Virus record (IMG/VR): IMGVR_UViG_3300033182_000980
Coordinates: 62,001 to 126,000 of that record
DNA: 64,000 bases
Source: a virus
Direction: 5' to 3' (one strand)
The notes beneath the pieces were generated by a model. That model was given only the letters and a program-made list of their open reading frames with translations, was not told where the DNA came from and made no database searches. The stretch's first letter is position 1; each line of letters opens with the position of its first letter. The position numbers were made by a program, and so were the translations under genes. Shown here piece by piece: positions 2,142 to 45,341 of the stretch.

Positions 2142-2807
2142 ATGAAAGTATTGATTATTAGCACAACCACACATAGGGATAAATCAACTAGTAAAATGGT
2201 ATTGAGCCACTTGTCCGACATACTCAATAAAGACCACGACATCGACTTCGTAGACGCAAACGACCTACATATTGTCCCCAACCTAAGCTGTTATTCTAGT
2301 GGGGGTAAAAACTGTGCAAGTAAAGACGCTGGTAAGTACAGATGTTGGGCACACAAGTTGAGCCATGAGAACCCCGATGAGTATAATGGCAAAGACGAGA
2401 TGGGAATCCTTTATGATGCCCTAAGCTGGTGCGACTTAGTAATATGGGGAACTAGCGTTCGATGGGGTAGTCATTCAGCTTTGATGCAGAAGATCATCGA
2501 GCGTATGAACACCCTAGAAAACCAGCAGACGGTTTATGGGGAGGAGAACCCTTTGAAGGGCAAAAAATGTGGTGTGGTTGTAACTGGACAACATTATAAA
2601 GCTCAACAGGTTGCTGAACACCTCATCACACAGTTCGGGTGGTTTGGGTTTAATGTAGACCCCTCTTATATGTTGACTTGGCAGAAATCACAAGACATAC
2701 ACCAAGAGCAAGAAGGTGATAACAACGATCCTCTTGAGGCATACCTCAAGTCTAAAGAGGGCAAAGTACAGGTAGAGAACTTCCTATCAAGCATGGAGAT
2801 CAAATGA
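2142..2807 (+). CDS. Flavodoxin-like / NAD(P)H-dependent FMN reductase family protein
   Basis: 221 residues with the layout of the flavodoxin-like fold: beta-strand MKVLIIST followed by a polar T/S phosphate-binding loop, a second signature around residues 100-120 (DLVIWGTSVRWGSHSALMQKIIERM) where the W-G-T-x-x-R-W-G loop would contact the flavin, then KKCGVVVTGQH as a later strand. Members bind FMN and reduce quinones, azo compounds or flavins with NAD(P)H. A run of cysteines at 50-70 (NCASKDAG, RCW) is unusual. The stop overlaps the GMP reductase start by ATGA, which implies translational coupling with purine metabolism; the electron acceptor is unknown. Confidence 0.7.
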   Translation: MKVLIISTTTHRDKSTSKMVLSHLSDILNKDHDIDFVDANDLHIVPNLSCYSSGGKNCASKDAGKYRCWAHKLSHENPDEYNGKDEMGILYDALSWCDLVIWGTSVRWGSHSALMQKIIERMNTLENQQTVYGEENPLKGKKCGVVVTGQHYKAQQVAEHLITQFGWFGFNVDPSYMLTWQKSQDIHQEQEGDNNDPLEAYLKSKEGKVQVENFLSSMEIK

Positions 2808-3670
2808 GAATCGAAACAGACTTTAAGCTCGACTTTAAAGATGTGCTGTTTAAACCTAAAAGGTCTACCCTCACATCACGCAAAGAGGTGAATCTCACAA
2901 GGTCAATCAAGCTACCCCACAGTAAAAGGACTTGGGAAGGTGTGCCTATTGCTGCCGCTAACATGGACACTGTGGCTACCTTTGAGGCTGGTAAAGTCCT
3001 CACAAATCATCACATGATGGTATGCCTTCACAAACATTACACCGAAGAACAGTATGTGGATATATACGACTGGGTGTATTCCAATCAAGGATGTGGCTAC
3101 GCTCAATACTGGGCTTACTCTATGGGTATCTCCGATGAAGAGTTTGATCGTCTTGTGCGTATTCAAGATAAGACCAATGGGATGATCCTCACGATCTGTA
3201 TTGATGTAGCGAACGGATACACAGAGCGTTTCATTAAGTTTGTCGCTAGGGTAAGGGAAAAGTATCCACTCTCAATCATCATCGCAGGTAATGTGGTCAC
3301 GGCAGAAATCACAGAGCAGTTGATCCTTGCTGGTGCAGACATCGTAAAGTGCGGAATTGGCTCTGGGTGTTTCGTTGCTGGCACACCTATCCTCACCAAT
3401 AATGGACTCAAGCCGATTGAGGAAGTTGAGGTAGGGGATAAGGTAATGACTCACATGGGTCGTGAGCGTACTGTGACGAACACCTTTACCCATACCAATA
3501 AGAACCTACTCGTTAATGTGAATGGCATCAAAGCAACACCAAACCATGAGTTCTATGTGGTACACAAGTCAGACGCTGATAAGGTGAATGACGATAACAT
3601 CCATGAGTACGCAAAGTGGGTTCGGGCTGATGAGCTGACTAAAGAACACTTACTACTAGAGGTTCAATAG
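2804..3670 (+). CDS. guaC: GMP reductase N-terminal half fused to N-terminal split intein
   Basis: Residues 1-188 are the N-terminal half of GMP reductase, which makes IMP from GMP with NADPH: DFKDVLFKPKRSTL, AANMDTV, CIDVANGY and the phosphate-loop run ADIVKCGIGSG are diagnostic, and the IMPDH-type CBS insertion is absent. The frame then enters an intein N-fragment at Cys (codon 3368; CFVAGTPILT, block A) with a block B-like TPNHEFYVV, and stops at TAG 3668-3670 after 100 intein residues. The catalytic half is encoded at 4657-5286. The layout closely resembles the IMPDH-1 'fractured gene' split intein described from marine metagenomes (Dassa and colleagues), here in a GMP reductase. Confidence 0.9.
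   Translation: MRIETDFKLDFKDVLFKPKRSTLTSRKEVNLTRSIKLPHSKRTWEGVPIAAANMDTVATFEAGKVLTNHHMMVCLHKHYTEEQYVDIYDWVYSNQGCGYAQYWAYSMGISDEEFDRLVRIQDKTNGMILTICIDVANGYTERFIKFVARVREKYPLSIIIAGNVVTAEITEQLILAGADIVKCGIGSGCFVAGTPILTNNGLKPIEEVEVGDKVMTHMGRERTVTNTFTHTNKNLLVNVNGIKATPNHEFYVVHKSDADKVNDDNIHEYAKWVRADELTKEHLLLEVQ
3368..3667 (+). other. Split intein N-fragment coding segment (IntN)
   Basis: Codes for 100 residues from the first Cys to the last residue before the stop codon. Block A (CFVAGTPILT), VGDKVMTHMG and the TxxH motif (ATPNHEF) needed for N-S acyl shift are present. It lacks block F and G, which are supplied by the C-fragment at 4657-4791, so splicing must occur in trans. Confidence 0.88.
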
Positions 3671-3680
3671 TTTATTTATA
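3666..3680 (+). promoter_or_regulatory. Promoter-like motif AATAGTTTATTTATA
   Basis: Exact consensus copy whose TAG is the stop codon of the GuaC-N/IntN frame; precedes the homing endonuclease gene by nine bases and would also serve the IntC-GuaC half. Confidence 0.65.
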
Positions 3681-3689
3681 TCTCTGATT

Positions 3690-4667
3690 ATGATGAAACT
3701 AGGTATCGGTAGAGGTAGTGTCATGCTCATCACAATCAGAAAAAATAATATGCTTGTCAAAGGCTTCTCCAAAGAGGGGCGATGCAACTATGCAATGCTT
3801 GAGGACGGTTCTAAGATACAGTCCTCAAAGCTAGGTAGTATCTCTATTGAGTGTTCAGAGTGTTCTAAGCAAAGCCACATACAATGGAGAACTGCCCTGT
3901 TAAGTAAGCCTTACTTATGCCAATCCTGTGTTGTTTCTGGAGATCGTAATGGGTTCTTTGGTAAGACACACACAGAGGAGACTAAGAAAGCCCACTCTGA
4001 CTTTATGTGTGGGAGATACACGGGTGAGGATAATGCTTTTTATGGCAAGACTCACACTAAAGAAGCGAGGGAAAAGATACGCTCGGCACAAACATGGCAA
4101 AAAGGATCATCTAATCCGTTCTTTGGTAAGACTCATTCGCCAGATACGATTGAAAAGATCATTGAGGGGAACAAAGCCTATCGGGAGTCTCTAACGGAGG
4201 AACAAAGAGCTAAAACCTCAAAAAAGTTGAGTCGTACTCAAAAGGATTTCCAAAAGAGCAACCCAAAATACTACAGGGAAATAAAGCAAAGGGGAGCATA
4301 CGCTTCGGCTAAGTCTCACAAGAAGTACAAGATGAACAAGCTAGAAGAAAAGGTTTATCAAGTGCTTCAAGATCACTTTACAGATATGTTCAAGTACACA
4401 GTCATCTTAGGTCATTTGCAGTTTGACTTTGGGTGTAAGAGTAAGCGTATCTTGATTGAGGTTCAAGGGGATTATTGGCATGGAAACCCTGCTCTCTATG
4501 GAGAGGGTAAAAGACCCTTGAACAACATACAGATCAACAAACAAGCTAAGGATAAGGTAAAACAATCATGGTGTGAGGACCATGACTTTACCCTACTCAC
4601 ATTTTGGGAAAGCGATATAAACGCAGACCCTAACATCATCTTAAGAGGAGTTTTAGATGTTATCTAA
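3690..4667 (+). CDS. Homing endonuclease with NUMOD3 repeats and Vsr-like nuclease domain
   Basis: Free-standing 325-residue gene between the two halves of the fractured guaC. Three NUMOD3-type DNA-binding repeats ([36 protein letters not shown]) lie around residues 85-160. The C-terminal ~110 residues resemble the Vsr/EDxHD nuclease fold: [15 protein letters not shown], then [15 protein letters not shown]. This nuclease family is the one associated with fractured split-intein genes. A promoter-like motif directly precedes it, so it may be transcribed separately. The stop overlaps the IntC start by 11 bases. ATG 3690 is used; 3723 is an alternative. Confidence 0.85.
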
Positions 4668-4791
4668 GTACAAGCTAGTAGAAATCAATACCCTAGAGAC
4701 TGAGCCTAACCCATCGGGTATCGCCTATGACCTTGAGGTCGAGGAGGATCACTCATATACGATTGGGGAGAATAGGACTGTAGTTCATAAC
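4657..4791 (+). other. Split intein C-fragment coding segment (IntC)
   Basis: 45 residues including the start Met. Block F ([14 protein letters not shown]) and block G (RTVVHN) are intact; the penultimate His and terminal Asn needed for Asn cyclisation are present, and the +1 extein residue is Ser. Confidence 0.88.
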
Positions 4792-5286
4792 TCTGCTTGT
4801 ACGACTCGTATTCAAGCAGGTGTGGGTTATCCACAGTTAAGTGCTGTGATTGAGTGTGCCGATGCCGCTCATGGCTTGGGTGGTCGCATCATGTCGGATG
4901 GAGGCTGTACCTGTCCTGGTGATGTAGCTAAGGCATTTGGAGGAGGTGCTGATTTCGTCATGCTTGGGGGTATGCTTGCAGGACATACCGAGAACCTTAG
5001 ACTGGATGACGAGGGTAACGCACTCTTCTATGGTATGTCCTCTGACACAGCGATGGAGAAGTATCATGGAGGGGTTAATGACTATCGTTCATCCGAGGGA
5101 CGAACCGTAGCCATTGAGCGTAGAGGTCCGATTAAAGATACTCTTCAAGATATACTTGGGGGTATTAGATCAACCTGTACTTATATTGGAGCGAGTGAGC
5201 TTAGAGAGCTGAGTAAATGCACGACTTTTATTCGTGTTCGTCAGCAGTATAATCCAGTGTTTGAGTCTAAGACGATTAAGAGCTAA
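4657..5286 (+). CDS. guaC: C-terminal split intein fused to GMP reductase catalytic half
   Basis: Codes for a 45-residue IntC (4657-4791) ending in TVVHN, then the second extein starting at Ser. The extein begins SACTTR, so the catalytic cysteine of GMP reductase (codon 4798-4800) is only the third residue after the splice junction, and unspliced halves cannot be active. The rest is classic GMP reductase: [56 protein letters not shown]. Both halves together give about 350 residues, normal for the enzyme. An in-frame ATG with ribosome-binding site AAGAGGAG starts this half independently. Confidence 0.9.
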
Positions 5287-5344: not shown

Positions 5345-5938
5345 ATGTATCTAAAGAGAGCATTACTTAACCTTGAGCGTAGGGTTGCTGATCTTGAAGC
5401 TGACCTTCAGCCTCAACTTGGTAAACCTGGTGGAGTCAAGCACACAACACAGCGTATTGACGAAGCCTTACCCGACGGGAGCCCGAAAGAAATCGAGCTG
5501 ATAGATACAGTCAATAAGGGTCAAGGGATCTCTAATCAAGACGCAAGGATTGTGTATCGCTTTGACGACTGTAATCCAGCTCTTGACGGAACGACTATGG
5601 TTAAGGGTTTTTGTGTCTCTTCTCATGGTCAGTTTAGAATGGACCAAAGAGGGATTACAGTTCGCAAGATCCAAGAGTTCTTCTTTAATCTGGAGAAGTA
5701 CCTAGAAAGGAATGAGACTAATCGGAGGACTTTCGACTTGCGAGACTCAATCAATAGAGGAATGGAAACCAAGTGGACAGATGAGCGTAGTAACAATCTC
5801 ACAGTAGTCTTTAGACTTGAGGGAGACAGTGCCAAGATCATCACTACTTATTACAAGAATAAGAAAGACCCGATCTTGACCGAGGAGAAAGACTACTCAC
5901 GCTTTATTCGACCTAGAGGTCGTAGACGAAGGCGTTAG
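5345..5938 (+). CDS. Basic protein with leader-like N-terminus and possible RNase-type (DUF4258-like) motif
   Basis: 197 residues. The first 20 form an amphipathic helix (LLNLERRVADLEADLQ) resembling the LExRIARLE leader of other proteins here. The middle has SSHGQFRMDQRGITVRKI and later NLTVVFRLEGDSAKIITTYY. The order H-x(3)-R-M-x-x-R-G-I, variable region, then a valine-rich strand and a final ITxxY resembles DUF4258/BrnT-like and contact-dependent RNase toxins, though weakly. The C-terminus is highly basic (PRGRRRRR). Its start is controlled by a perfect 15-bp hairpin at 5302-5342. Function is not proven; an RNA-acting internal protein is one guess. Confidence 0.6.
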   Translation: MYLKRALLNLERRVADLEADLQPQLGKPGGVKHTTQRIDEALPDGSPKEIELIDTVNKGQGISNQDARIVYRFDDCNPALDGTTMVKGFCVSSHGQFRMDQRGITVRKIQEFFFNLEKYLERNETNRRTFDLRDSINRGMETKWTDERSNNLTVVFRLEGDSAKIITTYYKNKKDPILTEEKDYSRFIRPRGRRRRR

Positions 5939-6342
5939 TAAGCACCTGCTATGTGTTCGATTTCTTCTTCGACCTTCATAGCAAGCATATACCAACGCTC
6001 TGCAAGGTCTTGGTAGTAGGGGTCTTTGCCTCTACTGAAAGAGGGCATCTTTTCAAGCTCACGCTCCATTTCTTGCATAGCCTTTAAGACTTTTTCTGCT
6101 GACCTACGAACAGGCGTAGAAGCTGTTCTCTGCTTGCTCTTGTACTCATTCGTGAGCCGATACTCTTTTACGAGAGCTTCATATTCTTTGTTCTGCGATG
6201 GGGTAAGACGATCTTGGTCTTCAAGGAGTTGAAGCTCATCTAACCTTGCTCTATCTTTTTTAGACATAGTGCGAGCTTGTCTCTCAAGGCGAGCAATACG
6301 ACCCTCAAGTTCACGAATTATTTCTGAAGCTGATCTTCTCAT
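5935..6342 (-). CDS. Coiled-coil protein with MRRSASE leader and a second leader-like copy
   Basis: 135 residues, strongly charged and helical. It opens with MRRSASEIIRELEGRIARLE, the leader shared with proteins at 33435, 33923, 43836 and 45342 and with an internal copy in the 16106 gene. After a linker that includes KQRTAS, residues around 76-98 (VRRSAEKVLKAMQEMEREL) look like a decayed second copy of the same helix. The upstream DNA has the promoter-like motif (6384-6401) and the same leader-gene 5' UTR. It is convergent with the 5345 gene (four-base overlap). No enzymatic motif is seen; a structural or packaged internal protein is inferred. Confidence 0.75.
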   Translation of the reverse strand: MRRSASEIIRELEGRIARLERQARTMSKKDRARLDELQLLEDQDRLTPSQNKEYEALVKEYRLTNEYKSKQRTASTPVRRSAEKVLKAMQEMERELEKMPSFSRGKDPYYQDLAERWYMLAMKVEEEIEHIAGAY

Positions 6343-7425: not shown

Positions 7426-9027
7426 TCACTTAATCTTTGGTCGGGTGTCGCATCTCTGCCTTAGAAGGTAAAGATTTGTCTCGTGTGTGTTCGCCATAGA
7501 CATGATAAAGTCGTCCATACCTAATGTAAGGCCACCCTGCTCTTTAAGCATATCATAAGCGTTCTTAAAGATGACCTGTAGGCCCTCTTCAATCAATAAA
7601 GCTCTGCGTATCGGGTCATTCATGCTGTGAGCTTCGGCTAGAGGTAAGAGGTGGTTAGCCATGAGCTGTGCTTGTTCAACAGCATTAACAGCCTCTACCC
7701 CATATGTGCCGACAATCTTTTCAGCCAGTGTGTCGATTTCTTCAATAAGAGATGTGTAAATCCTCTCCATCAGCTCATGATCACCGTAGAAGCTTGATCC
7801 TTTAACCTGCCAATGGCTCGTCCAGTGTGCAAAGTGAGCACCACGAAGAACAGCTAAGAGCATTTGAAGTATGGCGAGGTTATCTGTCCGATCACAGGTG
7901 CTCGCTCTTTTGTTGTATCTCATAAGTTCTTTCTTAGCGTTCATGGCTTCCCTTGCATCATAAAACACGATCATCTCCGAGTGATTACCAGCTATACGAT
8001 AGAAATCTTCTTTGCGACCAATGAGATCTCTACGAGCTTGAGCAATAGACACTACCTCAACATCTTTGAGCTTAACAGGCTTATCCCAAATGACCTCCTC
8101 AACAAAGCCCTTTTTAGGCTTGGTGCTGGTCTTGAACTTTAAAGCCACCATCTCCTTAGCTCTGCTTTTCTTACCCCCACTCATCTGAACGGAGTAGACA
8201 TCCCAACCCCACACACCAGAGATCGCATATACACCACCAGCACTAGGTGCGTCATCATCCATGATGTGATTAGGTCTAAGATAGCCGTCTGCGATGATGT
8301 CATCTACTCGGTTCGCATAGGTGTAGTGATAGAAGAAATCTTTAGAGAGGTTAATGTGGTAGTAATACTTGCTAAAAGCATTGGATCCGTACTCTTCAAG
8401 TTCTTCATCATCAAGCTCACCACCCTCGTGATAAATCAGTTTTAGATCACGCAAAGAGGCTTGTTTATCTATGTGTCTCTTAGCTGGAGCATCTCTCTCA
8501 TCTAGGGTGAACTCTCTCCAAGCATCTTGGGGGTCTTCTTCTAAGACAGCGTAAGATCCTTCAATCAGATCGAAGAACATTTCCATGTCCTCTCTATCGT
8601 ACCACTCGACCCGATCTAAGAAATCGTTGAGGTCTACTACGATAGCCGTCTCACCTTCGACATAGATGTTAATGGCATCAAACATCTCGGACAGAGACAT
8701 GAGGTAAGCTGGCTTACCCTCGTAAACGAACTCTAGCTCGAATGGGAGGGAATACCCTATAGAGCCTCGTTTGTGCTTCTTGTAGTATTTCTTACGATAG
8801 TCTTGGCGATTCTTTCTATAGTTGGGATCAGTTCTCATTTTCTTCCTATGCTTCTTTCTGTTTTTTCGTCTTTGGACTAGATTAGTATTTCTCTTGCGTA
8901 AGTTTTTTGTCCTAGTCCTCATACGCCTTCTGCGTTTGATCTTAGGATTAGTCCTACGCTTAGTGCCAGCCTGTAGCTCTTCAGCAAAGAGGTCATCTGC
9001 AAGTATTTCGGCTAAGAAATCACTCAT
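7426..9027 (-). CDS. Basic region + ADP-ribosyltransferase-like domain + Dps/ferritin-like domain
   Basis: 533 residues starting at MSDFLAEIL; the ATG overlaps the upstream stop (ATGAGTGA) and has AGAAGG in front. Residues ~20-90 are an Arg/Lys-rich region (KRRRRMRTRTKN, NYRKNRQDYRKKYYKKHKR) related to that of the neighbouring 9020 protein. Residues ~230-360 have an ART-like layout: FFYHYTYANRVDDIIADGYLRP (H-Y-T plus helix), GGVYAISGVWGWDV, then FVEEVIWDKPVKLKDVEVVS. Residues ~380-530 match Dps: AHFAHWTSHWQVKGSSF, GDHELMERIY, EEIDTLAEKI. Dps binds DNA and oxidises iron with peroxide. KQAS and NKRAS linkers separate the modules. The ART call is tentative; the Dps call is firmer. Confidence 0.75.
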   Translation of the reverse strand: MSDFLAEILADDLFAEELQAGTKRRTNPKIKRRRRMRTRTKNLRKRNTNLVQRRKNRKKHRKKMRTDPNYRKNRQDYRKKYYKKHKRGSIGYSLPFELEFVYEGKPAYLMSLSEMFDAINIYVEGETAIVVDLNDFLDRVEWYDREDMEMFFDLIEGSYAVLEEDPQDAWREFTLDERDAPAKRHIDKQASLRDLKLIYHEGGELDDEELEEYGSNAFSKYYYHINLSKDFFYHYTYANRVDDIIADGYLRPNHIMDDDAPSAGGVYAISGVWGWDVYSVQMSGGKKSRAKEMVALKFKTSTKPKKGFVEEVIWDKPVKLKDVEVVSIAQARRDLIGRKEDFYRIAGNHSEMIVFYDAREAMNAKKELMRYNKRASTCDRTDNLAILQMLLAVLRGAHFAHWTSHWQVKGSSFYGDHELMERIYTSLIEEIDTLAEKIVGTYGVEAVNAVEQAQLMANHLLPLAEAHSMNDPIRRALLIEEGLQVIFKNAYDMLKEQGGLTLGMDDFIMSMANTHETNLYLLRQRCDTRPKIK

Positions 9028-10276
9028 GGTCAGCCTTCTTTCTCCGTTTTTCGGCTCGTTGGTTCTTCTGTTTAATGGTAGAGACACCACCGCCTGGTCT
9101 ACGCTTGTACTTCTCAGGGTTCTTAGCATAGTTTTTCTTGTACTTCTTGTAAGTAGGGTTATGTTTCTTACGCTTGTAGAGTCTCTTCTGCTTCAGAAGA
9201 TTTCTACGATATTTAACCCGATACCTACGCTTGTACTTTTGAGACTGGCGTTTGGCTTGCCCCTTTTGTTTCCTCTGTCGCTTATTTCCTTTAGGTGGGC
9301 GATAGTTGTATCGGAACAAAGCGACTTTGATGAGGTCATCTCCGTCTATATCCCAATACTCGAAATCTTCAACAGAACCCATGACCCTACGCTTTAGGCC
9401 GGTTGAAGTGGATTGGTCTATATGAGGGTTTCCATACTGATCGCCTGGAATACCACTTGATCTCGGACGCTCATGGAGGGCTTTTCCATCGGGATGATCG
9501 TTTAATGCACTTGGGTCTTTCTTTGGACGATTCGCTCCACCTTGACCACTAGAGTCGGGAGGTGAGTTAATAACTCCTGGACCAACTCTTTGTTCGTCAC
9601 GACCTTCTGGATGTCCACTAGGTAAAGGAAGAACTCGATCTCTTTGAGGCTTACCGTCTTCATAATCTTCTCTTGATTTCTGTGGTGATGAAGTGTCGTT
9701 ATTGATTTGGTCTTGTCGGGTTTTATCGACCCATGTTTTGACACCTGCTAAGTCTTGTGCCGGTTGAGCCGCTGACTGTAGATAGCGAAGGGCTACCCTA
9801 CTAGCAGACGCTTTCTTCTTCTCTGTGATCTCTTTAGCTTCTTCACTGAAAGTCGGAGTATTAACAGGCTTCTTCCCACGATGTTTCGCTTCTTCACGCC
9901 TTTTCTTTTTGGCAAGCTCGGCTCGGTCTTCTTTAGACATTCCCCATGCCTTCTCTCGTGGCATACACTTGAGGGGTTTTTTGCCCCCACTTGTAACATC
10001 TGACCACTCTTTTTCACTAGATATGGCACATGGGCCAACAATGTCTCCTGGTTCATAGGTCTTGTCCTCTCCATCTTCTTTTTTGATCGTGTGTTTTACA
10101 GGTGTTATAGCAATCCAATCGCCCCATGTAGCACGATCATCGGGATCTCCACCACCATGTCCTGCAAACCAAGTACCTAACCCACCCTTACCAGTGTTCT
10201 TTTTTTTGGGGTCATCACGCTTTACGGACTCTAAATAGCGTTCAGCAACCTTTTCGATAAGACTTTTATTTTTCAT
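9020..10276 (-). CDS. Modular basic protein (DUF5872-like segment, disordered middle, histone-like basic tail)
   Basis: About 418 residues from ATG 10276, chosen because GAGG lies at good spacing; ATG 10282 is possible. The N-terminus carries the short motif VAERYLES, repeated at ~155 as RVALRYLQSAAQ. Residues ~25-135 (WGDWIAITP, PGDIVGPCAISSEKEWSD, KPLKCMPREKAWGMSKEDRAE) resemble DUF5872-type phage proteins. A long Pro/Gly/Asp-rich stretch follows. The last ~100 residues are dominated by Arg, Lys and Tyr (KRRYRVKYRRN, NPTYKKYKKNYAKNPEKY), a likely nucleic-acid-binding tail shared with the next gene. It may pack with DNA inside the head; no enzyme motif is seen. Confidence 0.7.
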   Translation of the reverse strand: MKNKSLIEKVAERYLESVKRDDPKKKNTGKGGLGTWFAGHGGGDPDDRATWGDWIAITPVKHTIKKEDGEDKTYEPGDIVGPCAISSEKEWSDVTSGGKKPLKCMPREKAWGMSKEDRAELAKKKRREEAKHRGKKPVNTPTFSEEAKEITEKKKASASRVALRYLQSAAQPAQDLAGVKTWVDKTRQDQINNDTSSPQKSREDYEDGKPQRDRVLPLPSGHPEGRDEQRVGPGVINSPPDSSGQGGANRPKKDPSALNDHPDGKALHERPRSSGIPGDQYGNPHIDQSTSTGLKRRVMGSVEDFEYWDIDGDDLIKVALFRYNYRPPKGNKRQRKQKGQAKRQSQKYKRRYRVKYRRNLLKQKRLYKRKKHNPTYKKYKKNYAKNPEKYKRRPGGGVSTIKQKNQRAEKRRKKADHE

Positions 10277-10287
10277 CGCCATATACC

Positions 10288-12183
10288 TCAAGGCCTACTA
10301 GAGATGAGTACACATTTACCAGAAGAGGGGTACTTACTCGTAAGCCTAACCCAAAGTTTTTTAGCAGTCGGATTGGTACTGCCGTTTGGTACGCAATAGT
10401 GGGGGGCAAAAACGAAAGGCTTTTTCAACTCATCCCAAATGTGTCGTATAAACCCTAAATAAAGATGATCTCCTAGCCTCTGACCTAAGAAATCTTCGTA
10501 TATCTCGGACTCGGACACAAAAGCCAAATAGATACTTGAGGTTGATCTGTCTCCCGCCTTTTCTTGAAGAACCCCTATGTCATAGTCACAAGGGCTGTCA
10601 AAGTTATAACTCCTACCCCACTCATACACAGCACCTTGAATACAACCTAGTTCCTCACCACCCCAACTTGTCCCATCGTCCTCCTGCATTTGAAGATTGA
10701 GGAAGAAAAGCACATCTAACCTCTCATGTCTGGTGTGATACTTTAAATCTACTTCCTCAAACTTGTGAGGTATAGAAGATAGTTTCAAGTATCTATGAGC
10801 CACCCTCTTTGCAGACTTCTCATAGCAGTTCTTATAGGGGCGACATGAAGCCTTTTCAGAGAAGCCCATGTCATCACAGCTTTTAGACTCACAATGCTCT
10901 TTATCCCACTTGCGTGGCATCTTGAACTCGGAGCTTTGTTTCTTCCACTTGCCCCCTAATCGCTTGTACTGAGCCAAAGCCCAACCGTTAGCATAAGCCG
11001 ATGGGAAGGTCTGAAACCCCTTGCCTTCATTGACAGGATTGACGGACTCTTTACCCCTAGAAACAGGTTTACTAGACTCACCTTTAGCTAGAGCTTGTAT
11101 CTCGGACCATAGCTTCTCATCGGTAGGTATGCTCTTTCCCCCTGCTTTCCTTAGAGGTGAAGAGTTATTGGCGAAGCCACTATCATAAGGGATAACCCTA
11201 GCACTACCGCTACCACTATCATGCACATAACCTCCGTCAAAGCCCTCGGCGGGTTTACGACCATAGGACTCGGAACGATCAAGATTTCTCGATTTGAGGT
11301 TAGGTGAGTCGGGGCTTGGGCGACCTATATTCCTCGCCCCATCACCATTTGGCATTTGAGAGCCTTCACCTTTGTCCTTAAGGTCTGTGCTTTTACCTGT
11401 GGGTGTTCCATTACTAAGGGTGCTTAACTCATCGGGTGGGCTAACCTGCCTAAAGAAATCGGCAACACGCATTTTTGCTGTTTCGGGAAACTCATTTTTG
11501 ATCTTCCTCACAGCTTTAATGTACTTTTTAGGTGCGTACTTCGCTAAGTCTTTAAGCCATGCCATAGGCTCTTTTAAATGCTTAGACCTGTATGAAGGAC
11601 GACTCGACTCACCTACAACATAAGAAACGATGTTTGCCACTTCATTTGGCTTTCTTCTCGATACGAAGTTGATTGCATTGATGGTGTCCTCTAAGCGAGG
11701 GTAAAACTCATTGTCATCTAAGCGATGGTGGAGTAGCTCACCTGTTTCTTGTCTATATTGTGGAGTCCTCTCCCTAAGACCAGGAAGCCCTGCTGTTGGA
11801 GAGTCCGCTCTCGGATCACCGTCTCGTGATCTGGTATAAAGGATTTGATATACATGAACCAACTCGTGTGCGACTACTCTATGAAGGGCTTCTGCTAGTT
11901 CTCTACCCTCATAGTTTTCTTCAAAGTAGAGAAGGTTCACATAAAGAACAGAGTTAGTTGGATCGTATTTAGCTTCAACTCTACTATACTTTTCGGACGC
12001 ACTAGGGGGTATGATCTCTACCCTCAAGTCTAAGTCCTCTACATGACCGCGAGTCCTCGGTGGTGGGGGTACAGTGACATTTTTACTAAGTTTGTCATAG
12101 ACACCGACTTGGCTTAATAAGTATTCTTCGACTTGTTCCACCACAGCTCTAGGTGGTCTTATTCTACTCGTTCTACTCTGCAT
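10288..12183 (-). CDS. Modular protein: HExxH metalloprotease-like, disordered linker, acetyltransferase-like C-terminus
   Basis: 631 residues. The N-terminal ~170 contain VVAHELVHVYQ, a zincin HExxH site (HELVH), after a strand NSVLYVNLLYF that fits a metalloprotease active-site edge. Residues ~230-400 are polar and probably disordered. PSAYANGWALAQYKRLGGKW and MGFSEKASCRPYKNCY (~405-470) are segments common in phage structural polyproteins. Next comes KRVAHRYLKLSS, the short motif shared with other proteins here, then ~170 residues (IQGAVYEWGRSY, YLAFVSESEIYEDFLGQRLGDHLYLGFI, NPTAKKLWVRL) with a GNAT-like layout. First gene of the operon 12183 to 7426; promoter motif at 12211-12229 and RBS AAGGAG. 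Confidence 0.7.
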   Translation of the reverse strand: MQSRTSRIRPPRAVVEQVEEYLLSQVGVYDKLSKNVTVPPPPRTRGHVEDLDLRVEIIPPSASEKYSRVEAKYDPTNSVLYVNLLYFEENYEGRELAEALHRVVAHELVHVYQILYTRSRDGDPRADSPTAGLPGLRERTPQYRQETGELLHHRLDDNEFYPRLEDTINAINFVSRRKPNEVANIVSYVVGESSRPSYRSKHLKEPMAWLKDLAKYAPKKYIKAVRKIKNEFPETAKMRVADFFRQVSPPDELSTLSNGTPTGKSTDLKDKGEGSQMPNGDGARNIGRPSPDSPNLKSRNLDRSESYGRKPAEGFDGGYVHDSGSGSARVIPYDSGFANNSSPLRKAGGKSIPTDEKLWSEIQALAKGESSKPVSRGKESVNPVNEGKGFQTFPSAYANGWALAQYKRLGGKWKKQSSEFKMPRKWDKEHCESKSCDDMGFSEKASCRPYKNCYEKSAKRVAHRYLKLSSIPHKFEEVDLKYHTRHERLDVLFFLNLQMQEDDGTSWGGEELGCIQGAVYEWGRSYNFDSPCDYDIGVLQEKAGDRSTSSIYLAFVSESEIYEDFLGQRLGDHLYLGFIRHIWDELKKPFVFAPHYCVPNGSTNPTAKKLWVRLTSKYPSSGKCVLISSRP

Positions 12184-16105: not shown

Positions 16106-17827
16106 ATGAGAGACAATCAGATATACCTCTACAATACCACAGTAGATGAAGCACTAGAGATACTTGGGATGGAATCTCGTAGAGACACAGCCCTCATTAA
16201 CCATGACGAGTTTGAAGTTAAGCTCAATAAAAAAGGCGACCATGTTATGGTGACTCTGTTAAGGGGTCTTGGCGACATGGACATTGATGACGGCATTATT
16301 CAGATCAAGATTGATTTTCCAGGTAAGTACCGAGATATGGAGAGCATTGATCGTGTACGAGCCGTTCTTGCACTTAATCCAAACAGCGATTGGTGGAAGG
16401 GCATCGTAGAGGAGCTTGAGGAGGGCTATCCTTTATCATGGAAAGTCGAAGAAATCTTGATTGAAACTGAAGAGCGTATTGAGAATCCAGATGAGGATGT
16501 ACTTGCTATGCTCGACCAAGCGATTGCAAGCAATCCTCGTTTTAGACTCCTTCAATCTTTCAAACAGCAAGTTTTATCTGGTCGTGAACTTTCAGAGCGA
16601 CAGATGGAGATCCTTGAGGAGAACTTAGGTTCAAGTGTTCCCTCAAACACCAATCAGATCGCTCGGATTAATGAAGCTCTCGCACTTGATCCTAGAAATC
16701 GTTTCGTTAGCCAGCTCAAGCAAAAAGCCGAGAATGGCATCACTTTGTCCGAGAGACAGATGAATGTGGTGGAAGAGATCATCGGAAGTCAGTCATCTCC
16801 TGCCGCTAAGATGCTCGCTGACCTTAAAGCCAATGCTTATCTTGAGCGTGAGGACTTTATGCTTATCAATAAAGGTCAGCGTAGGGGCATTGACTCACTC
16901 AATGATGAGGAGCGTAAGCGTTTGCGTCATCTCATCTACCGTAATGAGCGTAAGCTCGACAACACTTACTCCAAAGATGAAGTCAGAAGGCTTCTAAAGA
17001 AAGGAACAGCTATGCGTAGACTCGCTAGTGAAGTTATTCGTGATCTTGAGATGAGGATTGCTCGTCTTGAGGCAAACCTCAATCGTACTGCAAGCATGAC
17101 TCGTGAAGCCGCTGGAGATCCTCAGCTCGCTGGAGTTCGCTCAAGCACAGCTTACCATGAGGGTCGCTCAATGGCAGAGGCTACCTCTTGTATGCTTTAT
17201 CTCATCGGTGAGTCAGAGAATAAGAGCAAGTTCTACGAGATGGTCATCAACGGTTCTACCGTAGAAATCCTTTATGGTCGTCTCGGTTCTACCGGTCGTA
17301 GAGCAGATAAGTCATTCATGGACTCTTATGATGCACAGGCTTTCTTTGTTAAACAGCTCAAGTCTAAGCTCAAGAAAGGTTATGTCTCTGCATTCGCACA
17401 GCGTGGCGAGCATCGTAAGAGCGGTCCTCTCTATGGAACTTACCCAATCGGACTTACCTCTACTCCTGGACCTTGGCAGAACCAAGACATCGCTTATGAC
17501 CAAGCGATGATTACAGATACAGTTTCTGTTGTTCGTGCGGCGATTGCTTCATTCCAAGAGGACGGTATTGTTGATGAGCGAGCAATTGCTATGCTTATGT
17601 CTACACAGCGTTCACTCGGATTAAACAGGGATCAACTCTCACAAGAGTGTGCTAAAGAGATCGGTCTTGCTCTTGATCGTATCCAAGGTACAGGTCGTGC
17701 GGGTCGTCAGCCTGTTGAAGTTCGTACTCGTACTGCCATCAAGGGTCTACAGAAACTCATGCGTAAACTTGAGGGTGCTATGACTGGTGGTCGTAGAAGA
17801 GCTTTTTATCAAAAAAAAAATTGGTAA
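16106..17827 (+). CDS. Repeat protein with internal leader and WGR domain
   Basis: 573 residues in two parts. Part one has two ~55-residue repeats, NPRFRLLQSFKQQVLSGRELSERQ and DPRNRFVSQLKQKAENGITLSERQ; repeats with F-x-SL...G..LSxRQ occur in phage replication and inhibitor proteins. At residue 303 (ATG 17012, with AAAGGAA in front) the shared leader appears in variant form, MRRLASEVIRDLEMRIARLE, then NRTAS. Next comes a WGR domain (~350-420): CMLYLIGESENKSKFYEMVI, STVEILYGRLGSTGR, AFFVKQLKSKLKKGY. WGR domains of PARPs contact DNA ends and proteins. The frame ends in a run of ten A (17811-17820), where a -1 slip would join the next frame. Confidence 0.8.
   Translation: MRDNQIYLYNTTVDEALEILGMESRRDTALINHDEFEVKLNKKGDHVMVTLLRGLGDMDIDDGIIQIKIDFPGKYRDMESIDRVRAVLALNPNSDWWKGIVEELEEGYPLSWKVEEILIETEERIENPDEDVLAMLDQAIASNPRFRLLQSFKQQVLSGRELSERQMEILEENLGSSVPSNTNQIARINEALALDPRNRFVSQLKQKAENGITLSERQMNVVEEIIGSQSSPAAKMLADLKANAYLEREDFMLINKGQRRGIDSLNDEERKRLRHLIYRNERKLDNTYSKDEVRRLLKKGTAMRRLASEVIRDLEMRIARLEANLNRTASMTREAAGDPQLAGVRSSTAYHEGRSMAEATSCMLYLIGESENKSKFYEMVINGSTVEILYGRLGSTGRRADKSFMDSYDAQAFFVKQLKSKLKKGYVSAFAQRGEHRKSGPLYGTYPIGLTSTPGPWQNQDIAYDQAMITDTVSVVRAAIASFQEDGIVDERAIAMLMSTQRSLGLNRDQLSQECAKEIGLALDRIQGTGRAGRQPVEVRTRTAIKGLQKLMRKLEGAMTGGRRRAFYQKKNW
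17012..17827 (+). CDS. Possible internal in-frame product: leader plus WGR domain
   Basis: An internal ATG at 17012 preceded by AAAGGAA at good spacing would give a 271-residue protein that begins exactly like the other leader proteins. It could be a second translation product, or mark an older gene fusion whose leader now acts inside a polyprotein. Not separable from the parent frame by sequence alone. Confidence 0.4.
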   Translation: MRRLASEVIRDLEMRIARLEANLNRTASMTREAAGDPQLAGVRSSTAYHEGRSMAEATSCMLYLIGESENKSKFYEMVINGSTVEILYGRLGSTGRRADKSFMDSYDAQAFFVKQLKSKLKKGYVSAFAQRGEHRKSGPLYGTYPIGLTSTPGPWQNQDIAYDQAMITDTVSVVRAAIASFQEDGIVDERAIAMLMSTQRSLGLNRDQLSQECAKEIGLALDRIQGTGRAGRQPVEVRTRTAIKGLQKLMRKLEGAMTGGRRRAFYQKKNW

Positions 17828-24380: not shown

Positions 24381-27101
24381 TTGAGAGATCTCAAGTGCAA
24401 CTATGAGAAAAAACCGATTGAAAAAATGAAAGGAAAAGGCATGGGATTCCCTTTTTCAGACCACGCATTGTCGCTATTGAACTCTTATTACATGAAAGAG
24501 TCGGACGGATCACCACAGGAAGCATTTAAGAGAGCCGCTTACGCATACACCCCCAATAAAGAGCTTGCAGAGAGAGTGTTAGGGTACGCAACCAAAGGAT
24601 GGTTCATGTTCAGTTCGCCCATACTCTCCAACGCTGAGAGTACAGGTATGCCGATTTCTTGCTTCCTCACTTATGTTCCCGACACAGTTGAAGGTCTGAT
24701 CGAACATACAGAGGAGCTACGCTGGATGAGCGTTATGGGAGGTGGTGTCGGTGGGCATTGGGATCATGTTCGCTCGGTCAGCAAAAAAGCACCTGGTCCA
24801 ATCCCTTTCCTCAAGACTGTTGACTCGGATATGGTCGCATATAGACAGGGGTCAACTCGCAAAGGTAGCTACGCCGCTTACCTAGACATTAGCCATCCCG
24901 ATGTTGTTGAGTTTATGAACCTACGCCTCCCGACTGGTGGAGATACTAACCGTAAGTGCTTCAACCTCAATAACGCCCTTAACCTCACAGATGACTTTAT
25001 GACTGCTGTGATGAATGGCGACACTTGGGATCTCATTGATCCAGCAGACCAAACCGTTAGAGACACCGTAGATGCTCGTGAGCTTTGGCAACGCATTCTT
25101 GAAGTACGCTTTCGTACAGGAGAGCCTTACCTCAACTTTATTGATGAGGCGAATAGAAATCTCCCTCAACCCCTTAAGGATAAGGGGCTAAAGATTCATG
25201 GCTCGAACCTCTGTGTCAGAGGAGATACACAAGTTCTCACTCGTGACGGTTATTTCCCGATCTCATCTTTGGTGGGTCAAGATGTTGAGGTGTGGAACGG
25301 AAAACATTGGTCGATGACCACCATTGTCCAAACAGGAGAAGATCAAGAGATCCTTGAGGTCATTCTTGACAATGGAACTACTCTTTACACGACACCTTAT
25401 CACAAGTTTTATGACCATAAGGGGGAGGTTGTAGAAGCTAAAGATTTAACTACCTCCACAAAGCTGTTGAAATTTGAGATGCCTGTGGTTGATGGTGAGG
25501 GTGATTGGGAGAACGCTTATTCTTGTGGCTTCTTCACAGGGGACGGAACATATAACCACCTCCATCAACCTGTATCTTATCTTTATGGTAAGAAGAAGGC
25601 ATTGCTTGACAGGGTATCTACACCTCTTTGTCGAGTTCGCACAGGTTCTAAGTCAAATCGCTTTTCAGTCCTCCATGACAAGTCTGAAATCAAGGCAAAG
25701 TACGAAGTGCCTCTTGGTATGTCCTTAAAGACTCGCTTAGATTGGCTTTCTGGACTCTTAGACGCAGATGGTTGCGTTGCTAGGAATGGGCTAAACCAAA
25801 GTTTACAGCTTGTGTCTACGAACCGAGAATTCCTTACTGATTTGAGTCTCATGTTAAACACACTTGGAGTTCAACCTAGAGTCTCTGATTTCATGCCTGA
25901 GAGAACGGTGGACTTTGGTTCAGAGAGGGGTGGCGAGTATCGTTGTAAGGAAGCATGGAGGGTCTTAATCAACTCTAATGACACACAAAAGTTACTTGGT
26001 TTGGGTTTGAATACTCATCGCCTAGTCTTAAAAGAGCATAAACCACAAAGGTCAGCCTCAAGGTTTGTTCGTGTCTTTAGTGTCTCTAAGTCACAAAATG
26101 CGGATACTTATTGCTTCAACGAACCAAAGAGACACATGGGAGTGTTTAATGGTGTTCTTACAGGCAACTGTAATGAGATCCACCTCCCAACAGGACCTAA
26201 TCGCTCGGCAGTCTGTTGCCTCTCTAGTCTCAATGTAGAGATGTTTGATGAGTGGAAAGACACCACCATCGTAGAGGACTTGATCGAGTTCCTAGATGAT
26301 GTTCTTCAGTATTTCATTGAGAACGCACCTCCTCAACTTGAGAAGGCGATCAAGAGTGCCGAAGCAGAACGCTCACTTGGTCTAGGAACAATGGGCTTCC
26401 ATGCCTACTTGCAAAAGAAGGGGCTACCCTTCGAGTCAGTCTTTGCTGTCTCGGCTAACCGAAAAATTTACTCGACCATTAAGGAGAGGGCAGTCGCTTC
26501 CTCTAAGCGTTTAGCAGAAATCAAGGGGGAGTATCTTGACGGTATTGGGTCGGGCATGAGGAACAGTCATCTTCTCGCCATCGCCCCTAATGCTAACTCG
26601 GCTATCATCCTTGATACAAGCCCAAGCATTGAACCGTGGAAGTCAAATGCTTTCACTCACAGGACACGAGCTGGTTCATTCTTGCAGTTCAACAAGTATC
26701 TTCAAGCTGTGCTTGAGAAGAAAGAGGGCATTGATCTTGATGAGGTGAAGCAGAGCATCATTCTCAATCAAGGGAGCGTACAGCACCTCGATTTCTTGAC
26801 CCAGCTTGAAAAGGACACATTCAAGACTGCATTTGAGATCGACCAGATGTGGATTGTGGAACACGCTTCCGTTCGTCAAGAGTGGGTGTGTCAAGGTCAG
26901 TCAGTCAACCTATTCTTCCCTGCTGGCTCGGATAAGAACTATGTCAACGCTGTTCACTTGAGTGCATGGAAGAAGAAGCTCAAGGGGTTGTACTACCTTC
27001 GCACCAACGCTGGTGTAGTTGCTGATAAGGTGAGTGAGAAGATTGAGCGTAAGGCATTAAAGGACTATGACCTTGATGAGTGCATGAGCTGTCAAGGTTA
27101 A
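24381..27101 (+). CDS. nrdA: Class I ribonucleotide reductase large subunit with intein
   Basis: Reduces ribonucleoside diphosphates together with NrdB. Exteins give about 587 residues. Catalytic cysteines: GMPISCFLTY (C225 of E. coli), SNL-C-NEI (thiyl radical C439, with N437 and E441) and SAVCCLSSLN (C462). The C-terminal CMSC pair exchanges electrons with thioredoxin or glutaredoxin. The N-terminus is short and seems to lack the ATP-cone, so dATP feedback may be absent. Start: TTG 24381 is the longest frame; ATG 24426 has no clear RBS, while ATG 24441 has AAAGGAA in front and may be used. A 319-residue intein is inserted at the radical cysteine (25212-26168). Confidence 0.9.
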   Translation: MRDLKCNYEKKPIEKMKGKGMGFPFSDHALSLLNSYYMKESDGSPQEAFKRAAYAYTPNKELAERVLGYATKGWFMFSSPILSNAESTGMPISCFLTYVPDTVEGLIEHTEELRWMSVMGGGVGGHWDHVRSVSKKAPGPIPFLKTVDSDMVAYRQGSTRKGSYAAYLDISHPDVVEFMNLRLPTGGDTNRKCFNLNNALNLTDDFMTAVMNGDTWDLIDPADQTVRDTVDARELWQRILEVRFRTGEPYLNFIDEANRNLPQPLKDKGLKIHGSNLCVRGDTQVLTRDGYFPISSLVGQDVEVWNGKHWSMTTIVQTGEDQEILEVILDNGTTLYTTPYHKFYDHKGEVVEAKDLTTSTKLLKFEMPVVDGEGDWENAYSCGFFTGDGTYNHLHQPVSYLYGKKKALLDRVSTPLCRVRTGSKSNRFSVLHDKSEIKAKYEVPLGMSLKTRLDWLSGLLDADGCVARNGLNQSLQLVSTNREFLTDLSLMLNTLGVQPRVSDFMPERTVDFGSERGGEYRCKEAWRVLINSNDTQKLLGLGLNTHRLVLKEHKPQRSASRFVRVFSVSKSQNADTYCFNEPKRHMGVFNGVLTGNCNEIHLPTGPNRSAVCCLSSLNVEMFDEWKDTTIVEDLIEFLDDVLQYFIENAPPQLEKAIKSAEAERSLGLGTMGFHAYLQKKGLPFESVFAVSANRKIYSTIKERAVASSKRLAEIKGEYLDGIGSGMRNSHLLAIAPNANSAIILDTSPSIEPWKSNAFTHRTRAGSFLQFNKYLQAVLEKKEGIDLDEVKQSIILNQGSVQHLDFLTQLEKDTFKTAFEIDQMWIVEHASVRQEWVCQGQSVNLFFPAGSDKNYVNAVHLSAWKKKLKGLYYLRTNAGVVADKVSEKIERKALKDYDLDECMSCQG
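25212..26168 (+). other. Intein with LAGLIDADG endonuclease in nrdA
   Basis: 319 residues from Cys1 (CVRGDTQVLTRDGYFPI, block A; TPYHKFYD, block B) to the terminal GVLTGN, followed by extein Cys. Two LAGLIDADG-type motifs, SCGFFTGDGTY and LSGLLDADGCV, mark an endonuclease that appears intact. The penultimate residue is Gly instead of the usual His, a variation known to slow but not always prevent splicing. The +1 cysteine is also the enzyme's thiyl-radical cysteine. Confidence 0.9.
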
Positions 27102-33434: not shown

Positions 33435-33779
33435 ATGAGAAGATCAGCAAGCGAAGTCTTAAGAAACTTAGAAATGCGTATCGCAAGACTTGAGAAGCAA
33501 GCAGGATTCACTGTAGGGCAAGAAGTACCTTATACACTAAGAACCCTTAAAAAAGTGATGTCAGAGGGTTATGGATTCAAAGTGATAAGTGTAGGGGGGG
33601 GTTTGAGTGATACTCTTGAATACAGTTTAACCTCCGAGCAAGTGGCTAAGATCAGTTCTAGGGGGAAGGTTGATGTTATGCTAAAAAACATTCAACAAGA
33701 GCTAAAGTTCTCGATAGAGCCTAACCTAAAGAGGAAGGGTCGTAAAAACTTCATTGTCCTCACAGAAAACCCTGCTTAA
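33435..33779 (+). CDS. Leader protein, 114 aa
   Basis: Begins MRRSASEVLRNLEMRIARLE, then KQAG. The cargo after residue ~25 is a small soluble domain (LRTLKKVMSEGYGFKVISVGGG, SRGKVDVMLKNIQQELKFSIEP) of unknown family. Its control region (promoter motif, CTCCATTGGTGATC leader, ATGGAGAAC) is nearly identical to that of the next gene, so the two arose by duplication of the control-plus-leader cassette with different cargo attached. I infer a packaged or targeted protein, not an enzyme I can name. Confidence 0.7.
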   Translation: MRRSASEVLRNLEMRIARLEKQAGFTVGQEVPYTLRTLKKVMSEGYGFKVISVGGGLSDTLEYSLTSEQVAKISSRGKVDVMLKNIQQELKFSIEPNLKRKGRKNFIVLTENPA

Positions 33780-33922: not shown

Positions 33923-34249
33923 ATGAGAAGATCAGCATCAGAAATTATCAGAAATCTTGAGCAAAGAATTGCTCGTCTTGAAAGTGAAAATGCGAAGACC
34001 GCAGGTCTTATGACAGTCCACACCTTAGATACAAGTAGTCGTGAAATACCTTACGGCACAACTGAATCAGAAGTTATGAACACTCAAGACCTTCCAAGTT
34101 TGCTTTTAAAGTCTGAAGTGACCATTACAAGAGACGGACTACAAGCAATAGATAGAGACGGTCGAGTCCACACGATTGAAATCTCAAAAGACGAGCTTAT
34201 TAAAGCTCTACTACCTCTAGCTAGACCTACATCTGTTAAGATGAAATAA
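33923..34249 (+). CDS. Leader protein, 108 aa
   Basis: Begins MRRSASEIIRNLEQRIARLE, then ENAKTAG. The cargo (residues ~30-108) is a different small domain from that of 33435 (TLDTSSREIPYGTTES, LLKSEVTITRDGLQAI, VHTIEISKDELIKALLPL), soluble and of unknown family. Convergent with the DHH-like gene, five bases apart. Same control region as 33435. Confidence 0.7.
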   Translation: MRRSASEIIRNLEQRIARLESENAKTAGLMTVHTLDTSSREIPYGTTESEVMNTQDLPSLLLKSEVTITRDGLQAIDRDGRVHTIEISKDELIKALLPLARPTSVKMK

Positions 34250-35791: not shown

Positions 35792-38700
35792 ATGATGGCA
35801 ACGCCAGATACACGAATTTTCGCTGACTTGATGAAGTTAAGTCTAGCTATGAGAGCCTATGAAGAGCTTGGGGGAGATCCCAAAGGCTTAAAGAAAGCTG
35901 AGACTATTCTTAGACGCTACAAGGGCGAGTTTGACGCTATGGTTGACACCATGATCGAATCTCTTCTTGAAGAAGGTCTACCAGGTCTTCCAGCAGGTCC
36001 TATTATGACCAAGCTCACCCAAGCTCGTAAAGGGACTTTGGATGCTGACGAAGCGATTGGTGTCGCATCAGCGATCCAAGAGGTTATGGGCTGGTTTAAC
36101 TCTCGACTTGTACAGCTAAAAGAGAGATATCCAGACAAGAGAACTAAAGAGGCATTATGTGCGATTTCTAGTGCTTGCCACGAGGACTTCATTGACCTCA
36201 ATGCTCTCCTTCAAGCACCTAGAGCGAGCCGTGCGACTACAATCGGTAAATGGATCGCTATGGCTTGTGAAGAGCTTAATCAAGCGAATGAGGTAGAGCT
36301 TGGTATTGCCGACCTCCAAGAGTCAAATCTTCTTGCAGAAGAAATCAAGAGCATTGATGCTCGTATTCGTGCTGGTAGTCTTTCCGAGGATGAGCGTATT
36401 CATCTTCTTCAAGAGCGTGAGACTAAGTTTGATCTTCTTTTGGACATGAGCCGAAACACATCGAACCGACAAGCTGTTCTTAGTGAGGCGAGTCGTATTA
36501 TCAATACCAACACAACTTTCCAAACTCGCACAGGTGAGAAGCAAGGTCTTACACCAGAGCAAGAAGAAGCGATGATGGTGAGTGGTAAGTCAATCATCGC
36601 CGCAGGTGCTGGTTCGGGTAAGACTCGTGTTCTTGCATCCAAGATTGCATATACAATCCAAGAGCTTGGGGTCAATCCTTCACAGGTGATTGCTACTACT
36701 TTTAGTAAAGAAGCCGCTGGTGAGTTGAAAAAGAGGGCATTAAAGTATTCTGACGGTGCGGCGAGAGGTCGTTATATCGGTTCTACAACCCACTCCATCT
36801 CTTACAACATTTGTAATAAAGCAAATGTATTTAAAGAGATGGAACTGATGAATGATTCTCAAGTAGTCTCTTTTGTCCAAGCGGCGATTGCACAGGTTTC
36901 TTTACTGCCAACTACTCGTATTGGTGAGGTAGAACCAAAACCTTTAATTGATACGAGTAAAGCCAGCTCCGAGACTCAACTCATTCAAGATCAGGTGGTC
37001 GAGGAAGACGACTTTCAGATCGAGTTAAAAAAGCTCTTGATTCGTACCACTCAAGCGATTGCAGATAAAGCACTTTGGGGTCAGAGTAAAGGGTATGACT
37101 GGGCTACGAGAGATCTTACTGACTTGGATAACATTGTTCAGAGCTATAGAGGGAACAAAGCCACTTTAGTACCAGAAGATCATCCAGCTTGGGACGACCC
37201 GAACTTTAGAGCCATGATTAACTACAAGATCGAATATGGTCGTGGCAAAAAGTCATTAGAGAAGGCTGGTCCGATGCCTGGATTTAATCGTTTTGCATCA
37301 CAGTATGCGACCAAAGAGGATAAGGAAGTTCCTTTGAACCAATGGTTTAATCTTGGTGTAGATCAATATGATTTGATGATGGATCGAGACGAAAAAGATT
37401 ATATGAAGTATATCGGTATCGCTAAGGCGAAGCTACAGTCTCCGACAGAGCTTTGGTTTGAAGTTAGTGAGTCTGATAAGAGCTTTGTAGCTGTTTATGC
37501 GGCGTATGAATACCTCAAGTCAAAGAAGAAGATGTATGACTTTGATGATATGCTACTTAACGCTAATAAGGTACTTGTAGAGAACCCACAAGTTTTGAGG
37601 AGGCTTCAAAGCACCTATAAGTATATCTTTGTTGATGAAGCACAAGACTTGAATCAGAGTCAGCATATCTTGTTCGGCTTAATCGCTGGACACATCAACC
37701 CTGTGACTTTAGAGGCTTATGGTGATGGTCGAATGACAGCAGACACTTATTGTTTCATTGGAGACGATAAGCAAGCTATCTATGAGTTCAGAGGAGCAGA
37801 GCCAGAAGAGTTTATTGGTATTTCAGACCAAGAGGGTGGTGAGTTTAAGACCTCTATCTTGCGTACCAACTTTAGGTCTGGTCGAAACATCGTTCGTGCG
37901 GCAAACAGTCTCATCGAGAAGAACACTAAGCAGATTAAGATGACTTGTAATCCGAACGCTTCAAAAGAAGAAGGGAGGATTTCAAGTGAGGGTTATTTGA
38001 GTACAGAAACACCTCTTTCTCCTGGTGCTGTTGAAGTTGCACAAGAAATCCGACAGCTCATTGAACTTGAGGGTTGGGATCACGAGGACGGAGAACAGCA
38101 TAAGTTCGGTATCGGTTGTCGTACCAATAAAGAGCTTTCTGGATATGCTTTTGAGCTGTTGGTTCATGGACTTCCTTATTACTCTAAGAGGGATCTGCTT
38201 GATACTGTAACAATGCTTGCTCCAGTGGAGCTGATGTCAGTTAGATCTTCTGATCCTAAGTTGAGAGCTAAGGCTTTTTACAATGCCCACAAACATCTTC
38301 TTTTCTACATTGATCGTACTTTTAATGAGGTCGTGGAAAGAAAGTCAGCATCCGCCGAGATGAACCCACTTGATTGGTACTTGACTGGAGGCTATCGTCA
38401 AATTTACACAGCAACATCACGCAAGAAGAATCAGAACGCAAAGGCTTATGCTGATATGCTCCAGTCTATCATTGACTTTAATGGTACAAATGAAGAGCTT
38501 ATCGAATTTGTAAGCTACACTGTTCGTGGTGTTGATGGTAAAAACCTCATGGAGCGTCTAGGTCGAAATCTTTCAAGGGCAGAGCTGGAAGACTTAGCGA
38601 ATGAGACTACTGGAGAGGTTAGTCAAGAAGACCTTGAGGCATATGCCGAATCTGGTAGCTCTGTTATTCATAGGGTTATGCGAGATCGTACTCTTGAGGA

Positions 38701-43785: not shown

Positions 43786-43835
43786 CCTACCAATAAGTGA
43801 TCATTAAACCCTTAACCTTGAATGGAGAACCGATT

Positions 43836-45306: not shown

Positions 45307-45341
45307 ACTATACTTATATGATCAAACTAAGGAGAACTAAC

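Follow-up and report, generated by a model that had tools for sequence, protein, structure and literature searches.

The window analysed here is a stretch of 64,000 nucleotides, bases 62,001-126,000 of a 375,691-base virus record (IMGVR_UViG_3300033182_000980). Within it, an open reading frame on the minus strand (9027..7426, which includes the stop codon) encodes a polyprotein of 533 residues. Its ATG start codon is closely preceded by a ribosome-binding-like stretch, AGAAGG, and the start of the protein, MSD(F/L)L, is identical in position in relatives on contigs L002 and L003. Two further polyprotein genes are adjacent on the same strand. The end of the nearer one (polyprotein 2, 9020..10291) overlaps the start of the 533-residue gene and is itself overlapped by the second (polyprotein 1, 10288..12183). 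From their reading frames and module profiles, polyprotein 2 consists of modules that we named KRDD, PAQ and KR1, with an internal KKASASRVALRYL site, and polyprotein 1 of a zincin-like module (HELVH) with PPD, SAY and MPRK. Two Pro/Ser-rich, probably disordered modules without a known family were also observed in 9020-12183 (minus strand) and are kept in many polyproteins; their patterns are SPPDxLSS...RVIPYDSGF and QPAQDLAGVKTWV...GDQYGxPxID.

The 533-residue chain begins with a basic module, KR2 (residues 21-88; 8764..8967, minus strand, as for all parts of this chain), which is predicted to be helical, is 51% Lys/Arg and carries a net charge of +33. It is followed by an acidic domain, N88 (residues 89-186; 8470..8763), delimited by comparison with L002 and L003, with a net charge of -18 over residues 89-188. 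N88 is common to this protein and its L002 and L003 relatives (and identical contigs) only. A predicted cut site, DKQA↓S (residues 187-191; 8455..8469), separates N88 from an ADP-ribosyltransferase (ART)-like module (residues 192-371; 7915..8454), and a second, NKRA↓S (residues 372-376; 7900..7914), separates this from a Dps module (residues 376-533; 7429..7902). Both sites were assigned from the junction motif statistics given below. A preliminary description, made from the letters alone, had proposed a fusion of basic, ART-like and Dps-like regions in one protein. The reading frame is real and all of these regions, including the Arg/Lys-rich one, are present, together with the separate acidic domain absent from that description.

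The Dps and ART-like modules

Residues 376-533 are a Dps domain, as judged by sequence and predicted fold. Residues 385-498 match PHROG 3636 (E=3.7e-12), parts of the segment match PHROG 858, and phmmer matched PDB Dps chains at E of about 1e-4; a match to Pfam Ferritin fell below threshold. Within the full-length chain, AlphaFold2 models the last 170 residues with high confidence as a bundle of helices (most blocks pLDDT 80-95, helices about 90), which Foldseek superposes on Dps structures with Dps topology (best E=3.8e-5, TM 0.80 to target). H405, H417, D432 and E436, the counterparts of four ferroxidase ligands of E. coli Dps, are invariant across 15 aligned sequences. The fifth ferroxidase position is E421, with Glu for Asp, and is E, D or Q in relatives. 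A ferroxidase site in this module is likely on both the alignment and the model. The Dps assignment of the preliminary description is thereby borne out, with a Dps bundle and conserved metal ligands where a four-helix bundle with a ferroxidase site had been expected, in the last 150 residues. Wherever Dps is fused to other modules it is the last one, and in other phages it is a separate gene.

Residues 192-371 probably constitute an ADP-ribosyltransferase. Other contigs carry the segment as a recurring unit (28-48% identity), and the positions invariant in an alignment with eight distinct relatives include D230, H234, R240, A268-I269-S270, F298-K299-T300, E310, E311 and W314. The first motif is YHYT, with the His invariant in all nine sequences; the second-motif position (GVYAIS) is Y, F or T, and residue 273 is W or Y. 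Most of residues 87-353 have pLDDT <50 in the full-length model, and the ART region was judged from a separate AlphaFold2 model built from its own alignment, which is of moderate confidence (pLDDT 74.5, pTM 0.71). When this model was compared with the PDB by Foldseek, 15 of the 17 top matches were to CC0527, Arr, DarT, KptA/Tpt1 or TreTu, with a best E of only 0.035. All of these are ART-superfamily proteins, with CC0527 (DUF952) and TreTu counted among them. Viral fold neighbours include DarT, RNA 2'-phosphotransferase and rifampin ADP-ribosyltransferase. Among Pfam families, Tox-ART-HYD1 is matched below cut-off by six of the nine members (best E=0.011) and DarT by one (E=0.14).

It is less probable, by a wide margin of judgement, that residues 192-371 are some other small alpha/beta domain with a superficial likeness to ARTs. 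Such a reading would accommodate the variable tyrosine position, the lack of any PDB or viral fold match reaching E=0.001 and the lack of any Pfam match above cut-off; against it stand the predominance of ART-superfamily proteins among the first PDB fold matches, the recurrent sub-threshold matches to Tox-ART-HYD1 and the identity of the viral fold neighbours. A profile search with the alignment gave no match among PDB sequences, no Alt-type Pfam match was obtained, and the module was found neither in named phages nor in 84,980 bacterial and archaeal genomes. The preliminary description had placed an ART-like domain at residues 230-360. We retain the ART-like fold, over the longer region 192-371 and at the moderate confidence of the model; its matches are weak, and a catalytic triad (R-S-E or H-Y-E/D) could not be made out.

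Module shuffling and the junction motif

Profile annotation of chains from related giant-phage contigs revealed about 15 modules that recur in shuffled orders: the zincin-like module (HELVH), GNAT, PAP2 phosphatase, two basic peptides, Dps, ART and several unnamed ones (GNAT and PAP2 were identified by Pfam; the module names are our own). L002 (92% identical over the best segment) and L003 encode the same protein without the ART-like module. In both, the acidic domain leads through a single KKSS into Dps, so that KKSS stands in place of the whole ART insert, and in L003 the ART-like module is found in a different, neighbouring polyprotein. The module was found in eight contexts. Five place it between two other modules (N88-ART-Dps in the window, PPD-ART-PAQ, MPRK-ART-KRDD, SAY-ART-MPRK and PPD-ART-GNAT), one puts it near the start of a gene (ART-KRDD) and two at the end of one (MPRK-ART and PPD-ART). 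A single further copy is a stand-alone gene (L042:1670-2152, plus strand), the N-terminus of which, MSFKDFLFENRLFK, resembles T4-type capsid-targeting starts. On contigs L047, L053 and L062, a single chain holds modules that in the window are split over adjacent overlapping genes. The zincin HELVH module, which is not in the 533-residue chain and lies here in the adjacent gene 10288-12183, is among those fused in these three contigs.

Several effector and nucleic-acid-binding domains are thus carried per chain, in a mosaic that differs between relatives, as in polyvalent proteins. By these sequence comparisons, the 533-residue protein is not one odd three-part enzyme; it is one string among a family of shuffled module strings. 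The exact N88-ART-Dps arrangement was found in one metagenome contig only, among the sequences searched, as it would be if an assembly error had placed an ART module into a KR2-N88-Dps gene. We consider such an error very improbable, as the insert is in frame with a site at each end, like insertions occur at other junctions in other contigs, and the ART copy is <50% identical to all others found. This last figure also indicates that the module was not copied from any of the other copies found.

The sequences between modules are short and alike (KKAS, KQAS, KRAS, KTAS, KEAS and KSAS), and RVAxRYL often comes next. The statistics cover 33 non-redundant chains (20,938 residues), in which linker zones were set from profile edges without consulting the motif. 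These zones make up 20% of the length and contain 40 of the 45 occurrences of [KR]xAS; when motif positions were rotated within chains in 2,000 trials, the mean was 9.6 and the maximum 19. Because the module seeds were cut from sequences in which the motif had already been seen, and because the chains share ancestry, this significance is overstated, yet the contrast is still large. Linkers hold 58 of 66 occurrences of [KR]xA[SG], as against 71 of 187 for plain A[SG], and none of 17 for [DE]xAS. LxE and SxE, patterns of other phage head proteases, showed no concentration in linkers, and AxE a weak trend only. Site codons vary (four Ala codons and six Ser codons are used), so that selection acts on the peptide. 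This free choice of codons led us to reject an alternative in which [KR]xAS is a DNA repeat used in recombination. The preliminary description had suggested that KQAS and NKRAS could allow release of each part. Both belong to this junction-concentrated class, and the comparison strongly supports them as predicted places of release.

Apparent inteins were observed at three places. In a relative's cargo polyprotein (L008:3553-6546, plus strand), one lies within the SAYANGWA module (SAY, then CVPLHSEALTQRGW ... TITGN, then SNGWALAQ). Elsewhere in the window, a ribonucleotide reductase large chain (24381-27101, plus strand) contains another (CVRGDTQVLTRDGYFP ... GVFNGVLTGN), and an IMP dehydrogenase/GMP reductase-like gene (2804-5286, plus strand) appears to be broken by one, with intein halves in separate reading frames (2804-3670 and 4657-5286) and an endonuclease-like reading frame (3690-4667) between them. 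The latter arrangement resembles the split-intein 'fractured genes' of IMPDH in environmental data.

N-terminal tags, head proteins and proposed processing

The motif is not confined to module junctions. A shared tag, (M)R[RT]xASExIxxLExRxARLE, occurs in 24 copies in the genome, mostly at N-termini, and [KR]xA follows within nine residues in 22 of them, compared with 6% of random windows; in relatives this holds for six of eight. Copies lie at window positions 5935-6342, 33435-33779, 33923-34249, 43797-44306 and 45318-46220 and at 19 further places in the genome. In the first of these (5935..6342, minus strand), the tag RSASEIIRELEGRIARLE is followed by RQA. The tagged proteins may be the packaged set of this phage. 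The 533-residue gene has no recognisable N-terminal tag, which we count against a cargo model, as its own route into the head is left unexplained by that model. Two other proteins with tags were observed. In a WGR-domain protein of the window (16106-17827, plus strand; Pfam E=1.2e-12) the shared tag lies mid-protein instead of at the N-terminus, as if two genes had fused, and a Pfam ART-PolyVal protein elsewhere in this genome, outside the window (L010:15198-16274, minus strand; E=1.9e-12) starts with a second tag type, MMKPYQRVANRYMKAS (QRVANRYMKAS).

In the predicted proteome [KR]xAS occurs 136 times, compared with about 52 after shuffling. The highest count, nine, belongs to a protein of 870 residues encoded close to the terminase gene. 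Four each are found in an EF-hand scaffold-like protein, in the maturation protease, where one of them is just behind the catalytic domain, and in a UvrD-like helicase (35792-39100). The helicase shows that [KR]xAS alone is no marker of head proteins, which counts against a head-cargo reading. Both a head maturation protease (genome positions 52134-53582) and a major capsid protein (PHROG 2522) were identified in the genome. The capsid protein is 89% identical to that of an uncultured 485-kb phage, 46% to that of Tunturiibacter phage Tunturi_5 and 38% to gp27 of Bacillus phage G. KLAAS near its N-terminus is kept in the 485-kb phage and Tunturi_5 and is missing in phage G, which again counts against the reading. 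T4-type head genes (Peptidase_S77, Gp23) are absent from the genome, and the head genes are of another type. One site thus occurs both at domain boundaries and after N-terminal tags, the distribution sought in substrates of a head protease.

Cutting by the head protease has two competitors. The polyproteins could be packaged and then processed by the zincin-like HELVH module that they carry themselves (in 10288-12183, and fused in many relatives). The same strings often contain zincin modules, and zincin processing of polyvalent proteins was predicted by Iyer et al. (PMC5512222). The motif, however, also comes after the N-terminal tags of many proteins with a single module and occurs in the scaffold-like and protease proteins, and we regard zincin cutting as unlikely, though a genuine competitor for this step. 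We give slightly less credence still to strings that are never cut, whether packaged or cytoplasmic, with [K/R]-x-A-S as a preferred flexible linker between domains working in tether. Ala, Ser and Lys are usual in linkers, and Dps tethered to a basic region would give a DNA-bound ferritin; but the pattern is specific, given the figures for [DE]xAS and plain A[SG], the motif also follows tags, where a linker is not needed, and the same parts are separate genes in relatives.

A proposed cargo polyprotein and its precedents

From the fusion, the Dps domain, the module shuffling and the junction motif common to tagged and head proteins, all of which were computed here, we infer packaging, cutting, the protease responsible, injection and both enzymatic activities. 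Our preferred reading, to which we assign a probability of about 0.6, is that three adjacent genes of a 375-kb phage with a phage G-like capsid protein encode polyvalent cargo polyproteins and that the 533-residue protein is one of these. The chain would be carried into the assembling head, where the head maturation protease would cut sites of the [K/R]-x-A↓S type, in this case behind A190 (KQA↓S) and behind A375 (KRA↓S). The products would be a basic peptide with the acidic domain, an ART-like enzyme of about 180 residues, and a Dps subunit competent for assembly and iron oxidation. The freed parts would remain with the DNA and enter the host with it. There the ART may, at an early stage of infection, modify a protein or nucleic acid of the host, and Dps and the basic peptides may condense or shield DNA.

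This reading draws on the shuffling that places ART in eight contexts and one stand-alone gene, on the closest relatives in which the flanks are joined by a single KKSS, and on the concentration of [KR]xAS in linkers with variable codons. It draws also on [KR]xA after the tags, the abundance of sites in the scaffold-like and protease proteins, the identified head maturation protease and capsid protein, the assignment of Dps by sequence and fold and of ART by fold neighbours and sub-threshold Pfam matches, and the occurrence in some relatives of one chain where there are adjacent overlapping genes here. More broadly, this giant-phage lineage might possess a general virion-cargo system, a proposition that we hold to be evenly balanced. 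Either of two short tags would mark dozens of proteins, enzyme, ferritin and basic-peptide modules would be strung between portable [K/R]-x-A↓S sites, the head protease would free the parts inside the capsid, and insertion of a module between two sites would add new cargo. If so, the cut-site signature would make it possible to read from sequence what uncultured giant phages package, dozens of proteins without a known function among it, and would amount to a natural plug-in rule by which phage capsids are loaded. A ferritin (Dps) would be added to what phages may bring into cells along with their DNA, and the conjecture that polyvalent proteins are cut would become directly testable.

Taken separately, polyvalent proteins, packaged ARTs and phage Dps genes are already known. 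The elements that look new are the use of Dps as a cargo module, a portable site found both at module borders and after tags, and this exact arrangement of four parts. The words ferritin and Dps are absent from the main survey texts, including PMC5512222; this covers the open literature only, and a description elsewhere is possible. Stand-alone phage Dps proteins (Lactobacillus phages Semele, Bacchae and others) share the fold and the ferroxidase ligands at about 30% identity, but are single-domain genes, whereas Dps is here the final module of a string. Tox-ART-HYD1 and DarT resemble the ART-like module through weak profile and fold similarity, a His in the first strand motif and acidic residues in a late strand; the module differs in lying below every curated cut-off and in its variable tyrosine position (Y, F or T).

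T4 Alt, the ejection proteins of SPN3US and the polyvalent-protein concept are precedents for a cargo polyprotein. The preliminary description had invoked T4 Alt, and the comparison is apt as regards the proposed packaging and injection of an ART, and the proposed removal of N-terminal targeting tags by a head protease. It does not extend to the clade: the active site of Alt is R-S-E (PMC5512222), the Alt/VIP2 signature, whereas the present module has an invariant His instead of Arg in the first motif; in addition, this phage lacks a T4-type head protease and capsid protein and carries many modules per chain. In SPN3US and phiKZ-type phages, many packaged proteins are processed at a short consensus during head maturation, and the protease loses a C-terminal piece (PMC10052503). 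The consensus differs from that found here, and the cuts identified in SPN3US ejection proteins remove propeptides (PMC10052503), whereas the sites predicted here separate folded modules. The polyvalent proteins of phages and conjugative elements combine 2 to 15 effector, enzyme and nucleic-acid-binding domains per chain, include ARTs and zincins, show extensive mosaicism and were predicted to be packaged and processed (Iyer et al. 2017, PMC5512222). The present strings share with them multi-domain chains, ARTs, zincins and mosaicism, and differ in that the ART is not of the Tox-ART-HYD2 type, as far as could be told, and in that the modules are short and bounded by one portable motif, which is also found after N-terminal tags.
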